Source of the DNA: an uncultured Rhodospirillales bacterium
GTDB taxonomy: Bacteria > Pseudomonadota > Alphaproteobacteria > Azospirillales > Azospirillaceae
DNA length: 64,000 bases
Assembly: GCA_903931735.1 (NCBI GenBank)
Contig: CAIZDL010000065.1
Span: forward strand, 1-64,000
Reading direction: 5' to 3'
Below the pieces are notes generated by a model. That model had not been told where the DNA came from, did no database searches, and saw only the letters and a list, made by a program, of their open reading frames with translations. This document shows, one piece after another, positions 36,360 through 45,456 of the stretch. Numbering within the stretch: position 1 is the first letter of the stretch; each line of letters starts with the position of its first letter. A program made the translations under genes and the position numbers.

Positions 36360-36740
36360 CTAGGCCGGCTCTTCGACTGTGAGGTATTTGCGGACGGTGC
36401 TGACCAGATCTCGTGTGGAAAATGGCTTGGTAATATAATCGGTAGCCCCGAGCGCCATGCCTTTTTCCCGTTCAACGTCGCGACTCTTGGCGGTCAGCAT
36501 AATGATCGGCAGGTCTTTGTAGGCGGGATTGGCCCGGATCGTTTGGCAGACATCGAATCCGTCTCGTTTGGGCATCATCGCATCGAGCAAAATCAGACTC
36601 GGAGTCGATTCTTCTAGTGCAAAAATAGCTTCCTCACCGTCGCGCGCAACACGAACCACAAATCCGGCTTTTTGCAGAAGTACCTGCAACGACAATAAAA
36701 TGCTGGGCTCGTCGTCAGCAACCAAAATAGTGGGTTTCAT
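36360..36740 (-). CDS. Single-domain response regulator (CheY-like)
   Basis: ILVADDEPSILLSL...LILLDAMMPKRDGFDVCQ...IIMLTAK...GATDYITKPF. Confidence 0.95.
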   Translation of the reverse strand: MKPTILVADDEPSILLSLQVLLQKAGFVVRVARDGEEAIFALEESTPSLILLDAMMPKRDGFDVCQTIRANPAYKDLPIIMLTAKSRDVEREKGMALGATDYITKPFSTRDLVSTVRKYLTVEEPA

Positions 36741-36810
36741 GGCGTGTTTCCCCTAGGAATCTCTTTTTTAACCGGTCCTTCAACCGACCAGCTTGATTTT
36801 TAAGGTTATA

Positions 36811-36846
36811 TGCCGAAGCGTTCGGCAACCTGTGAGTGACAGGTTG
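36811..36846. promoter_or_regulatory. Two adjacent perfect hairpins in the divergent intergenic region upstream of the mamX-like gene
   Basis: tgccgaa-gcg-ttcggca (36811-36827) and caacctgt-gagtg-acaggttg (36826-36846). Confidence 0.5.
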
Positions 36847-37049
36847 GCCTTCGCCCACACATTGCCAAGGTATGTCTAGCAACTTTACAAAATAATGGCA
36901 ACCTTGCCGGCCCGTCGTTTTGCGGTATGGTGCTAACTCGTTTTGCTGGCGTTGATTTTCCGCGCCGCTGGACAGAACCGGGTCGGCTGGTCTATACGGC
37001 TGGGGTGCGCGGGTGGGCGGCGAATCGGCAAAACTTTATTGGCGTTGGC

Positions 37050-37868
37050 ATGAAAATCAAGCTTCCCGAGCGGCAGGACTTGGCAGCCTGGATCATGGCG
37101 CTGGGTGTCGTCTTTGGTATGGCGATGTTTTTGACTGCGGTGTTCAACGGCAATCCGTGGAATGATCACACCTATGCCAAGGCGTCTCCGATTATCGCCG
37201 GGATGCCCGGGCCGCATCGCGATGGCCGCGAAAAGATGATTTGTTCGAGTTGCCATATTGTGGTTCCGGCCAAGCAGGTTGCGGGACCGGCGACGTGGCG
37301 TTTGCCCATTGTTCAGGGCACCAAGGCCCCGCATGTCGATGGCCGGGAGAAGGTGGCCTGTGCCACCTGCCACACTATTTTGGTGAAAGACACGGCGGCT
37401 GCCGCAACCGGCGCGCGTCTTCAGCCCACTCAAAAGGTGGGGGCTGCGTCGCCGAAGGTGGTAACCGTTGCGCTTCCCGTCGATCCCGTTGGGGCGCCGC
37501 CCGAACAGATTCTCTCTCCTGAGGCTCATGAGTGGTTTGTTGCTTATAGATTTCAGGGCAATGTTAAGCGCGTCTCGGGGACCGGCAGTCAAACTGTTTG
37601 GGGCGATGTGTATATTCTGGTCGATGATGGCATCAATGACCCGAGTTGGATCGATTTGGCGCCGCGTTTATTTTTACAATCTGGCGGCTGTTACGTTCGG
37701 CCCGGCATGTTTGTTAAAGGCACAGCCTATCGGGACCCAAATGGCGGGCCCGGCAGTCTTGGCTATGCAAAAAGTATTATGGTAAACGGCGAGTTGTGCG
37801 CTTTGCGTGACTCTCACCTTAACGGTTTGTGGGAAGACGCAGGGGGAGCCGATGTCGAAGAACCTTGA
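37050..37868 (+). CDS. mamX: MamX-like magnetosome protein: membrane anchor plus two tandem magnetochrome-type CXXCH domains
   Basis: N-terminal TM; PIIAGMPGPHRDGREKMICSSCH and PIVQGTKAPHVDGREKVACATCH; directly upstream of and overlapping a mamZ-like gene. Confidence 0.82.
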   Translation: MKIKLPERQDLAAWIMALGVVFGMAMFLTAVFNGNPWNDHTYAKASPIIAGMPGPHRDGREKMICSSCHIVVPAKQVAGPATWRLPIVQGTKAPHVDGREKVACATCHTILVKDTAAAATGARLQPTQKVGAASPKVVTVALPVDPVGAPPEQILSPEAHEWFVAYRFQGNVKRVSGTGSQTVWGDVYILVDDGINDPSWIDLAPRLFLQSGGCYVRPGMFVKGTAYRDPNGGPGSLGYAKSIMVNGELCALRDSHLNGLWEDAGGADVEEP

Positions 37869-39894
37869 GACAAAGGGGGAGGTTCCCCCCCGCGCTTTTG
37901 GCCGGTTGCAGTGGAATACGGTCTACTTTTTATCGTGCGCCAGTGCGTTGGTTGCTGCGATTACGATCGGTATTCAGCCATTGTTGCTGGATACGGTGTT
38001 TTGGATCGCTTTTGAAAAAGAGGGGGCGATCAACGCCGACATACAAGTATTCGCTGAAATCGTCTCGATACTTGGGGTCGGCTGGTTTGGGTTAATGTCG
38101 GATCGGATCGGGCGGCGTCCCATAATATTGGGTGGGTTTCTGGCAATATGCGCCGGGACGGTCTTATCGCTTTTCAGTCTAAAAATCGGGTTGACGGTCG
38201 GCACCGGGGCGCTCGCGCTGCTTTATGTCACCCGCGCGCTGATATCGGGCGGCGCTGACGCGGTTCAGCTTGAACTATCAACTTTGGCCGGCGATGTTTC
38301 GGAATTTCACAATAGGCCGAGGTTGCTGACCGACGTGATCTTCATGATGGTGTTCGGGGGAACGGTCCTTACCGCAATCATTATGCAAGTGGCCGAGCAA
38401 AAGGGCGGCATCGCCGTTATTGTGGCCTTCCCGCTGTTGGTCGGGGTCTGCGGCTATGTCATGTCCCGAAATAATTTATTTGATGTTCTGGACAAAAACT
38501 TGAGTGGTGGGAGTCCGTTGCGGCATGTTTTTCACTTTGTAAGTAAAGACCCGCGGATGCAGCTCGCCTTCGTCGCGACATTTTACACCCGCGCCGACGT
38601 GATTATTATTAGTTTGTTTTATACCCTCTGGTGCATTTCGGTCTCCGATATCGTTGGTGTGACACGGTTATATGCGGCCACTCACGCCGCCGTGATGATC
38701 GGGATGTTGGGCGCGAGCGTTTTGGCCTCGATCCCGATGTGGAAGTTGGTGATCGAGCGTCAAAGCCGGATTTCGGCAATCGGGGCCAGCTTATCGATCG
38801 CCGGCATCGGGTATCTTCTGTTCGGCTCATTTTCGAACCCGTTCAATTGGTTTTTGGTTTTGCCGATGATCTTGATTGGCATCGGTCATGCCGGCTGCAC
38901 CGTGACGTTGCAAGTGTTGACAGTCGATATGGCGCCAAAGCGGATGCTTGGGGCCGTGCTGGGCATGGCTTATTTAACCGGCGGTGCCGGAATCATTATG
39001 TTGACGCAAAGCAGCGGTTACTATTTTGACGCAGTTGGTCCGCGTGCTCCCTTTATGCTGATGGGAACAGCCAAATTATTGGTAACACTCTTCGCGAGCT
39101 GGTTGATTTTGAACGGGATCGATGAAACCAATGAACATTGCATGAAAGGGAACCGAAAGGTCGACTGGAAACCGTTGGTCTTTCTGACCGCCTCCTTGCC
39201 ATTTGTTTGGTTATTGGGGCGGTTTCTGGTTGGTGGCTATATGATCGGGCCGTCTCTCACCGAAACTCCGGTTGGTTTCATAAATCGTTATCTCGGTGAC
39301 TGGGCATTCACTTTCTTGATTATTTCGCTGGCTATGCGCCCGGTCCAAGAAATAACCCGGATCAGCGTGCTCGCCCGATACCGGAGGATGATTGGCCTTT
39401 ATGCGTTTTTCTATGCGGTGCTCCATGTTATTGCCTTCGTGGCGCTGGAGTGGGCATTTAACCTTGATGACATGATACTGGATATCTATAAGCGCCCCTT
39501 TATTATTCTGGGCTTGATTTCGTTTATGTTGTTGGTGCCTCTGGCTGTAACGTCGACCAATGCTCAAATCAAGCGGATTGGCGGCAAGCGTTGGAAGCAA
39601 TTGCATCGATCTGTGTATGCGATTAACATTATGATTGCGTTGCACTTTATTTTTGCTGCCAACCACGAGAATGGCGAACCCTACGTTTACGCCGGAATTG
39701 TTTTGATCCTGATTTTGTATAGGACCAAGTTTTCTGAGAAACTGCCCTGGGCAACCGCCATCGTGGCCCTTCTGAAGGCGGCGAAAGAGGGGCTGGGATC
39801 TCGGAAATGCGGCGAGTGCCCCGCCAATCTTGGCGATATGTCGGAAGCAAAGAGCTGTGCCGGACCCTGCACCAAGATCTCGATCCCTCGCTGA
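37852..39894 (+). CDS. mamZ: MamZ-like magnetosome protein: MFS transporter fused to a YedZ/MsrQ-like ferric-reductase TM domain
   Basis: MFS signature LMSDRIGRRPIILGGFLAICAGTVLS; C-terminal RRMIGLYAFFYAVLHVIAF...KRPFIILGLISFMLLVPLAVTSTNAQIKRIGGKRWKQLHRSVYAINIMIALHFIFAANHE. Confidence 0.87.
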   Translation: MSKNLETKGEVPPRAFGRLQWNTVYFLSCASALVAAITIGIQPLLLDTVFWIAFEKEGAINADIQVFAEIVSILGVGWFGLMSDRIGRRPIILGGFLAICAGTVLSLFSLKIGLTVGTGALALLYVTRALISGGADAVQLELSTLAGDVSEFHNRPRLLTDVIFMMVFGGTVLTAIIMQVAEQKGGIAVIVAFPLLVGVCGYVMSRNNLFDVLDKNLSGGSPLRHVFHFVSKDPRMQLAFVATFYTRADVIIISLFYTLWCISVSDIVGVTRLYAATHAAVMIGMLGASVLASIPMWKLVIERQSRISAIGASLSIAGIGYLLFGSFSNPFNWFLVLPMILIGIGHAGCTVTLQVLTVDMAPKRMLGAVLGMAYLTGGAGIIMLTQSSGYYFDAVGPRAPFMLMGTAKLLVTLFASWLILNGIDETNEHCMKGNRKVDWKPLVFLTASLPFVWLLGRFLVGGYMIGPSLTETPVGFINRYLGDWAFTFLIISLAMRPVQEITRISVLARYRRMIGLYAFFYAVLHVIAFVALEWAFNLDDMILDIYKRPFIILGLISFMLLVPLAVTSTNAQIKRIGGKRWKQLHRSVYAINIMIALHFIFAANHENGEPYVYAGIVLILILYRTKFSEKLPWATAIVALLKAAKEGLGSRKCGECPANLGDMSEAKSCAGPCTKISIPR

Positions 39895-39916
39895 CCTGCT
39901 CCTCGGTTCTCGCTCG

Positions 39917-39973
39917 GGTTCCGACTCCGACGGACCGTTCCGTCCGGTCGGAGTCGGAACCCTAGCTTTTTCT
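39917..39973 (+). terminator. Rho-independent terminator of the mamXZ-like operon
   Basis: Perfect 16-bp stem gggttccgactccgac/gtcggagtcggaaccc followed by ctttttc. Confidence 0.8.
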
Positions 39974-40403
39974 AAATGTTGTGTTGTTCCCGAGACACGA
40001 TCATTGGGAATGAAGCGCCTCGGTCACAACACGAGGAGAAGATGCCGAGGGGCATGTGGGAGTGATGCTCCGGTTGGCTCGATAAGAGATATTCGCTCGT
40101 GAATAACCGGCATCAAACGGGGGCACAACACAGTGCCCAGCCAAATCCGCACCGCTCATCGAGGCGCGCGACCATTTGATTGCGCAAATTGTAGCGGAAA
40201 ACGGGGTATCTTGCCCCAAATGCGACCTCTGCCGCGAAGGAGGGCCGCTGACCTAAAGACGAACCGTGGGGCACGCGCGGGCGCCTCGCCACCCAAACAA
40301 TGGCAGCCTAGCTGCCCCGCGCCGCCTCGCCACAAATGGTTCTACCAAACACGAACGGAACCCGACCCCCAAACCCTGTAAGGAGTTCGGGGCAGTATTT
40401 ACG

Positions 40404-40823
40404 TCAATGCCCAGAATTATCGTCCAGGATTGCGATCAGTTTTGCCTGGGCTATTCCCAGATTGGTCAGAGCTTTGACCCGCTCTTCGTCTGTTTTCGCG
40501 TCCTCGACATCTTCACCGAAGTTCTTGATGTCTTGCTCCACCTTGGCCCTGTCAAGATTGGCCACCTTCAGCGCCCCCTCGACCAACACCGTGACGCGCT
40601 CCTCGGTCACCTCGGCAAAGCCGCCGGTGACGAATATTCTATCGGTAACCCGGTTATCCTCATAGGTCACAATCGCCCCGGGGCGAACGGTCGTGATCAT
40701 CGGGACGTGCCCGGCAAGCACACCATAATGCCCCTCGCCGCCAGGGATCACGACCATATCTACCGGTTGTGAGATCAGCAGTTCTTCGGGCGACACCAGC
40801 TCGAATTCAACCTTTTCCGCCAT
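40404..40823 (-). CDS. atpC: ATP synthase epsilon subunit
   Basis: KVEFELVSPEELLISQPVDMVVIPGGEGHYGVLAGHVPMIT. Confidence 0.97.
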   Translation of the reverse strand: MAEKVEFELVSPEELLISQPVDMVVIPGGEGHYGVLAGHVPMITTVRPGAIVTYEDNRVTDRIFVTGGFAEVTEERVTVLVEGALKVANLDRAKVEQDIKNFGEDVEDAKTDEERVKALTNLGIAQAKLIAILDDNSGH

Positions 40824-40907
40824 GGTCCTAATCCTCACCCCTCCCCCAAAACATGGGAGAGGGAATATTCAGCAGGCAACGTCTGATTCAGGCTCAAAAA
40901 TCGCCAA

Positions 40908-43302
<2,395 letters not shown>

Positions 43303-43357
43303 ATAAGGCCTTCATTTCACAGGGTTGGCACATCGCTGTCCGAATCCTGATGTCTGC

Positions 43358-44887
43358 TTACACAAACACCTTGGCGAACCCGCCGACGAATGCCTTCAGC
43401 CGCTCTTCGGTGGCCGGTGACAACGCCTTCTCATCACGAATGCTGGTGAGGATGTCAGCGCCCTTCAACCGGATCTCTTCCAGCAGCTTCTTTTCAAAGC
43501 GGTTGATGTCTTCAACCTTGATGCGGTCGAGGAAGCCGCGCACGCCCGCGAAAATCGACACGACCTGCTCTTCAACCGGCAGCGGGCAGAATTGCCCCTG
43601 CTTGAGAAGCTCGGTCAGCCGAACACCGCGCGCCAGCAGGCGTTGGGTGGCCGGGTCGAGGTCCGACGCGAACTGGGCGAAGGCCGCCATTTCGCGGTAT
43701 TGGGCCAGTTCCAGCTTAATCGAGCCCGCGACCTGCTTCATCGCCTTGATCTGCGCCGACGATCCAACGCGGCTGACCGAAAGGCCGACGTTGATGGCGG
43801 GGCGGATGCCGCGATAAAAGAGGGTGGTCTCAAGGAAGATCTGACCGTCGGTAATCGAGATCACGATGGACGGGATGTAAGCGGACACGTCGCCGGCCTG
43901 GGTTTCGATCACCGGCAGCGCGGTCAACGAGCCATTGCCTGCCGCATCGCCCATCTTCGCCGCCCGTTCAAGCAAACGGGAGTGGAGATAGAACACGTCG
44001 CCAGGATAAGCTTCGCGGCCTGGCGGGCGACGCAGCAAGAGCGACATTTGGCGGTAGGAAACGGCCTGCTTCGACAAATCGTCATACACGATCACGGCGT
44101 GCATACCGTTGTCGCGGAAGAACTCGCCCATGGTGCAGCCGGTGTAGGGCGCCAAGAACTGCAACGGCGCCGGCTCGGATGCGGTGGCGGCAACGATGAT
44201 GCTGTATTTAAGGCAGCCGGCATCTTCCAGGGTCTTGACGATCTGGGCGACGGTCGAACGCTTTTGACCGACCGCAACATAGATGCAATAGAGCTTCTTG
44301 CTCTCGTCGGTCCCCTCGTTGACCCCCTTCTGATTGATGAAGGTGTCCAACGCCACTGCGGTCTTGCCGGTCTGACGATCGCCGATGATCAGCTCGCGCT
44401 GGCCGCGCCCGATCGGCACCAGGGCGTCGATCGCCTTGAGGCCGGTCTGCATCGGCTCGTGCACCGACTTGCGTGGAATAATGCCCGGGGCCTTGACGTC
44501 GACGCGCATCCGCTTGACGTCGACCAACGGCCCCTTGCCGTCGATAGGATTGCCAAGAGCGTCGACCACACGGCCGAGCAGGCCCTTGCCGACCGGCACT
44601 TCCACGATGGCGCCGGTCCGCTTAACGGTGTCGCCTTCCTTAATCCCGCGGTCGTCGCCGAAAATGACGCAACCAACGTTATCGGTCTCGAGGTTGAGCG
44701 CCATCCCCTTGATGCCGCCCGGGAACTCGACCATTTCGCCGGCCTGCACATTATCGAGGCCGTAGACGCGCGCGACGCCGTCACCGACGGCCAGCACCTG
44801 GCCAACCTCGGCGACATCCGCCTCGGTCCCGAAATTCGCGATCTGTTGCTTGAGGATCGCGGAGACTTCCGCGGCGCTGATATCCAT
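43358..44887 (-). CDS. atpA: ATP synthase alpha subunit
   Basis: [19 protein letters not shown], canonical AtpA. Confidence 0.99.
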
Positions 44888-45456
44888 TAGAGGTGCCCCC
44901 CTGGAGCTTTCATAGCGAGTTGCAATTTATCGATCTTAGTCCTGAGGGAATTGTCGATCAGGCGCGAGCCGACCTTGACAATAATCCCGCCGAGCAAACT
45001 GCCATCGACATTCACCGAGATGGCGACTTTATCCCCCAGAGCTTGCTGGACCGCGACGTTCATCGTCTTGGTCTGGGCCTCTGTCAAAGGCTGAGCCACC
45101 GTGATTTCCGCGCTGAGCTTCCCTTGCCTGCGGTCAAGATCGGACAAAAATGCCTCGATCATGCCACCTAAGGCAAACAGCCGCCGCTTCTTGGCGACCA
45201 AGGCTATAAACTGCTGCGTCAGCTCGGAAACCCCGGCCTTTTGCAACAGCGCTGATAGCGCTTGGGTTTGCTGCTCCCGGGTCAAAACCGGGCTGCGGAG
45301 GAAACGGCGCAAATCTGGTGATTGAGCGAGCAGATCCTTCAGGCGGCTCAGGTCACTCGCTACTAGTTCCAGACTATCGCGCTCGGTCGCGAGATCGAAC
45401 AGTGCGGTCGCATATCGTACCGCAAGTCCGGATGCTGCTGTTCCGTCGGATGCCAC
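44887..45456 (-). CDS. atpH: ATP synthase delta subunit
   Basis: [17 protein letters not shown]...; first gene of the atpHAGDC order. Confidence 0.97.

Follow-up and report, generated by a model that had tools for sequence, protein, structure and literature searches.

Introduction

In Magnetospirillum gryphiswaldense MSR-1, the mamXY operon consists of mamY, mamX, mamZ and ftsZm. Cells of this species that lack mamX, mamZ or ftsZm form flake-like, partly hematite particles, with a stronger effect in the absence of nitrate, and an iron oxidoreductase and transport complex composed of MamX, MamZ and MamH (MamXZH) has been proposed. The location of MamXZH at the magnetosome membrane, and the flake-like hematite that results from its loss, are known for MSR-1 only (PMC3971196, PMC8547445). 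Both mamX and mamZ are said to be universal among the magnetosome formers of the Alphaproteobacteria (PMC9938234), and the presence of these genes apart from mamAB has already been described as a general pattern (PMC12724286). Magnetosome clusters have also been published for an Azospirillaceae clade that includes VK3_bin-780, in a paper whose running text, Figures 5 and S13 aside, makes no mention of mamX or mamZ (PMC11773610). Magnetosome clusters are usually seen as being inherited or transferred in blocks.

Here we analyze a mamXZ pair in a stretch of 64,000 nucleotides (the window) from the MAG of an Azospirillaceae lake bacterium, G000 (3.48 Mb in 291 contigs, with a listed completeness of 100%), which is a congener of VK3_bin-0780 (G016). 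An earlier note, made from the letters of the window, had proposed that this pair is a relocated, minimal or relict unit embedded in the core chromosome.

Results

The window carries an intact mamX-mamZ pair

The first gene of the pair, mamX (37,050-37,868, + strand), encodes a 272-aa protein; its start codon was placed by alignment with the copies of G016 and of a lake contig, L045 (see below). The top model for this protein was NF040996 (E 2e-103, 345 bits), with positions 1-263 of 264 covered, and the runner-up was MamS (E 2e-20). Because the score lies below the NCBI curated equivalog cut-off of 400 bits, as is also the case with the G016 and L045 copies (345 and 329 bits), the protein is filed as a putative MamX, i.e., as a homologue and not as a certified equivalog. 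The magnetochrome model PF18509 matched over two stretches, with the CXXCH motifs CSSCH and CATCH, and a MamS-like part forms the C-terminus. The second gene, mamZ (37,852-39,894, + strand), encodes a 680-aa protein that reached 932 bits against NF040998 and hence passed the curated cut-off of 650. In this protein an MFS transporter (MFS_1, PF07690) is fused to a following ferric-reductase/MsrQ-like membrane domain (Ferric_reduct, PF01794). Its C-terminus (39,780-39,894) is a cysteine-rich tail in both G000 and G016, yet the two tails can hardly be aligned.

The two genes overlap by 17 bp and both reading frames are intact. Comparison with the G016 copy gave a pN of about 0.13 and a pS of about 0.73; both genes are conserved, under purifying selection. 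Beyond the pair, no MamX- or MamZ-like match was found in the window. A class-wide search for mamZ in 385 genomes matched its own genome alone, MamZ was not found in viral contigs, and with plasmids there were only partial matches below 60%, which, among the matches listed, were mostly to MsrQ. An Rfam scan of the locus gave chance-level matches only.

The pair lies between core genes

HMM and domain calls, together with the ORF positions, confirmed the arrangement reported in the earlier note, in which a divergent CheY-like gene precedes the pair and the convergent atpHAGDC operon follows it. The left border is a CheY-like receiver protein (36,360-36,740, - strand), a genus core gene with 93-98% identity in four congeners. 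Its conserved partner is a membrane protein with a C-terminal DnaQ-type exonuclease domain (PF00929; 34,078-36,312, - strand), which has a sensor-kinase-like N-terminal part and adjoins the CheY-like gene in all five genus genomes. The right border is atpC (40,404-40,823, - strand; 71-82% identity in four congeners), the last gene of the operon, in which atpC, D, G, A and H extend from 40,404 to 45,456 on the - strand. No other mam gene was found near the pair, as had been noted, and the MamX-, MamZ-, MamH-, MamE- and MamS-like matches beyond it sit on other contigs.

The claim that mobile elements are absent held only in part: there was no transposase among the flanking proteins scanned with Pfam (a subset of the ORFs), which were of housekeeping type or without a Pfam match, but a MITE-like repeat follows mamZ. 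Likewise, a GC content below that of the flanks was borne out by the values for mamX (56.9%) and mamZ (52.2%) when compared with the window (62.4%), but it is not specific to the pair, as the adjoining CheY-like gene (52.0%) and atpC (56.3%) are low too. The dip was thus considered a weak sign of foreign origin. The mamK, mamM, mamB, mamQ and feoB genes on other contigs of this genome have a GC content of 55-57%.

The main magnetosome genes are on other contigs

A main magnetosome cluster was sought outside the window contig and located on three contigs of G000. Contig C99 carries an Mms6/MamD-like protein, feoA, feoB and MamH; C43 carries the MamE C-terminus, MamK, MamM and MamO; and C153 carries mamV and mamP-A-Q-R-B-S-T. 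Several of these proteins, like MamX, score below the NCBI strict cut-offs, and the matches of MamD/Mms6 and of the truncated MamE cover only part of the models. Apart from mamXZ, G000 thus carries a near-complete magnetosome gene set. With mamXZ included, the set is spread over at least four contigs. The MamY model (NF040997) gave no match in G000 or G016, where no positive control scored either, and no second FtsZ was found, each genome having one FtsZ place, which in G000 lies beside ftsA-like and ftsQ-like genes. The Magnetospirillum mamXY operon, with its four genes, thus has no counterpart in G000.

Some further features of these contigs were observed. On C43 (4,669-7,655) mamM is directly followed by mamO, with no mamN between them, unlike the gene order in Ca. 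Magneticavibrio YYTV-2, where mamN lies between the two (PMC12724286). On contig C134 of G016, mamH follows mamS-mamT and does not head a mamHIE operon, so that the main cluster is rearranged there too. A second AtpA-/AtpD-like set is encoded on C111 of G000 (ORFs at 1,284 and 5,881), with the ftsZ region a few kb away; its proteins have 49% and 55% identity to AtpA and AtpD of G016, which suggests an additional ATPase, perhaps of the Na+ type.

The earlier note had also considered a minimal or relict unit. That the pair is a decayed leftover of a lost magnetosome island would accord with its isolation from other mam genes and its low GC, but both frames are intact, pN is low and a near-complete mam set is present in the same genome. 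A relict is therefore most improbable, and we rejected this reading. The main magnetosome genes on the other contigs likewise contradict a minimal unit.

The pair occupies a rearranged site

Synteny was then compared around both borders. In G016, G021, G005 and G025 the CheY-like gene keeps its DnaQ-exonuclease partner, and its neighbour on the mamX side is a SPOR-type gene; beyond atpC, a desaturase-like gene and/or rppH is found in place of mamZ. Thus mamXZ is at neither site in the four congeners, no trace of mam genes was found at their CheY or atpC sites, and neither mamY nor ftsZm occurs at this locus in the relatives. The mamXZ-atp arrangement is not a standard of the clade, and the view that the pair is relocated and embedded in the core chromosome is borne out by these neighbours and by the different place of the pair in G016. 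In G000, rppH is found on another contig (C179, 28.7 kb), where an NAD-kinase-like gene follows it, and since this junction is independent of the window contig, the atpC-rppH link is truly broken. The SPOR gene of G000 is on C129, which ends 34 bp past the SPOR stop, so that the CheY side of the break lacks closure by an independent contig.

In G016, mamXZ is on contig C120 (58 kb), flanked by modA and by a chemoreceptor gene, and the parts of the contig that were examined contained no further mam gene. MamX and MamZ were both absent from G005, G021 and G025, i.e., from three of the five genus genomes. The sites of the pair in G000 and G016, the two carriers within the genus, are thus unrelated. 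At the DNA level, the mamXZ copies are similar from the start codon of mamX onwards and the similarity diminishes towards the end of mamZ; because it is limited to this region, no vehicle is revealed by shared flanks.

A MITE-like repeat adjoins mamZ

A dispersed repeat of 123 bp (39,913-40,035, + strand) begins 18 bp after mamZ and has the ends CTCG..CGAG. The family to which it belongs is 123-127 bp long, with CTAG-type ends, a consensus that begins and ends with CTAGTGTT..AACACTAG, and two hairpins. The 22 copies aligned are short and have common ends, terminal inverted repeats and different flanks, as in MITEs. The repeat was found at 10 places in G000 and in 35 match rows in G021, hence in two of the five genus genomes, and was not found in G016, G005 or G025. 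Copies in G000 include C43:8623-8740, which is just past the mamO cluster, C160:88-211, C91:285-400, C217:1505-1608 and C108:1866-1970; for two of the better copies, the nearest contig end is no more than about 300 bp away. One copy of G021 is located between the CheY-like and SPOR genes, i.e., in the same gap that is bordered by mamXZ in G000. The first hairpin of the repeat is followed by a T-run and could, from its predicted form, end the mamXZ transcript. The repeat may have served recombination, or it may merely act as a terminator.

The repeat at the mamZ-atpC junction, the fragmentation of the MAG into 291 contigs and the SPOR contig that terminates at the junction would all be expected if the pair had been misplaced by assembly or binning and belonged elsewhere, e.g., in the main cluster. 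Such an artefact is unlikely, as no more than 41 identical bases are shared among the repeat copies found, a second contig confirms the break at its rppH end, the CheY-mamX gap holds the conserved upstream sequence of the CheY-like gene itself and no repeat, and the pair is isolated in G016 as well.

mamXZ and mamH differ in their distances to a lake contig

A 3.8-kb lake contig (L045), binned with AlinenLipids_bin-2225 (G439), has the order mamH-mamX-mamZ. Its GC content is 50%, compared with 57-61% for its MAG, and its tetranucleotide profile correlates with the bin at an r of about 0.1, versus 0.53-0.58 for true pieces; it is probably mis-binned and comes from some other magnetosome former. 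Distances based on the housekeeping genes of this bin (AtpG 59%, AtpC 45%, core mam proteins 40-61%) were therefore withdrawn as a yardstick, and only mamH on the same contig was kept. Between G000 and G016 the identities are 78% for mamH, 79% for mamX and 80% for mamZ. Measured against both G016 and L045, the G000 copies have 78-79% (mamX) and 80-82% (mamZ) identity. The L045 mamX and mamZ have 78-81% and 82-88% identity to those of the two congeners, whereas its mamH has only 52% identity to either mamH. Furthermore, the G016 mamZ is nearer to the L045 copy (88%) than to the G000 copy (80%). With three mamXZ sequences and mamH as the single yardstick gene, the ratio of the distance to L045 over the G000-G016 distance was 1.00 (0.82-1.27) for mamX, 0.91 (0.78-1.08) for mamZ and 3.12 (2.51-4.01) for mamH; the bootstrap range of mamH overlaps with that of neither mamX nor mamZ. 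The L045 mamH is not readily explained as a distant paralogue, because it scores equal to the G000 mamH against the MamH model.

On the simplest reading of these distances, mamXZ would have been exchanged between lineages apart from mamH, and the history of the pair seems, from the sequences compared, to be its own and in part horizontal. If so, mamXZ might be a cassette whose horizontal exchange between magnetotactic lineages does not depend on the mamAB cluster, and G000 and G016, where its sites differ, would have acquired it separately. The contrast between mamH and the adjacent mamX and mamZ, and the closeness of the G016 and L045 mamZ, argue for such transfer; the small number of sequences and the single yardstick, the composition of L045, which does not fit its bin, the lack of a clear fork order among the mamZ copies, and a synonymous divergence that fails to separate mamXZ from genes of similar GC3 count against it. 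We hold this reading tentatively, at close to an even chance. It is possible, if somewhat doubtful, that the pair was instead inherited vertically from a magnetotactic ancestor of the genus, with relocation inside the chromosome of at least one of the two species and loss from those that are not magnetotactic. The G000-G016 protein distances of mamX and mamZ, which match those of mamH and mamT, are consistent with this, a rearrangement is documented at the locus and the adjoining repeat could recombine; but the close mamXZ on L045 demands a further event, and a look at the congeners' CheY and atpC sites revealed no mam trace.

Discussion

The explanation that we consider probable is that the window carries an intact, probably working mamXZ redox module that did not descend in place, but reached the CheY/atpC junction by lineage-specific relocation or by separate acquisition. 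The transfer of a cassette is a sharper form of this explanation and does not exclude it. With the pair of the sister species G016 at an unrelated place, mamXZ appears to have moved on its own, apart from the main magnetosome cluster. The host would be a magnetosome-forming Azospirillaceae bacterium with scattered magnetosome genes, and the pair would have arrived, by one route or the other, at a point of rearranged gene order, as compared with the congeners, beside a MITE-like repeat. MamX, with two haem c sites, and MamZ, with its MFS and ferric-reductase domains, would presumably be expressed there and act in trans with the MamH of contig C99; this is the natural inference, because all three are encoded in G000 with MamH on another contig. 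By analogy with MSR-1, MamXZ most likely works with MamH as the known iron-redox module, which would govern how iron crosses the magnetosome membrane and the balance of Fe(II) and Fe(III) there. The position of mamXZ behind mamH on L045 fits this partnership. That mamXZ is a self-standing redox cassette, which travels between magnetotactic lineages apart from the mamAB cluster, can be inserted anywhere in a chromosome and works in trans with the MamH already present, is a proposal that falls just short of the probable.

If a mamXZ unit has its own position and history, trees of mamAB do not speak for the redox genes, searches limited to the island overlook some genes of the pathway, and the pair may be of use as a portable part when magnetosomes are built in new hosts. 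Within the readable literature, the new element is an isolated mamXZ that lacks mamY and ftsZm, has non-orthologous positions in two congeners and appears to differ in its history from mamH.

In comparison with the mamXY operon of MSR-1, the pair in the window has the same order, with mamX directly followed by mamZ, and the same domain make-up (two magnetochromes; MFS and ferric reductase), but a CheY-like gene takes the upstream place of mamY and atpC the downstream place of ftsZm, and the pair lies outside an island, at a rearranged core-genome site. The magnetotactic Azospirillaceae clusters (CCP-1 clade, VK3_bin-780) are from the same clade as G000, and main magnetosome genes are present in both (PMC11773610). 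With respect to the general pattern of mamX and mamZ apart from mamAB (PMC12724286), the case described here differs in two respects: the sites of the pair in G000 and G016 are unrelated, and its history appears to be unlike that of mamH.
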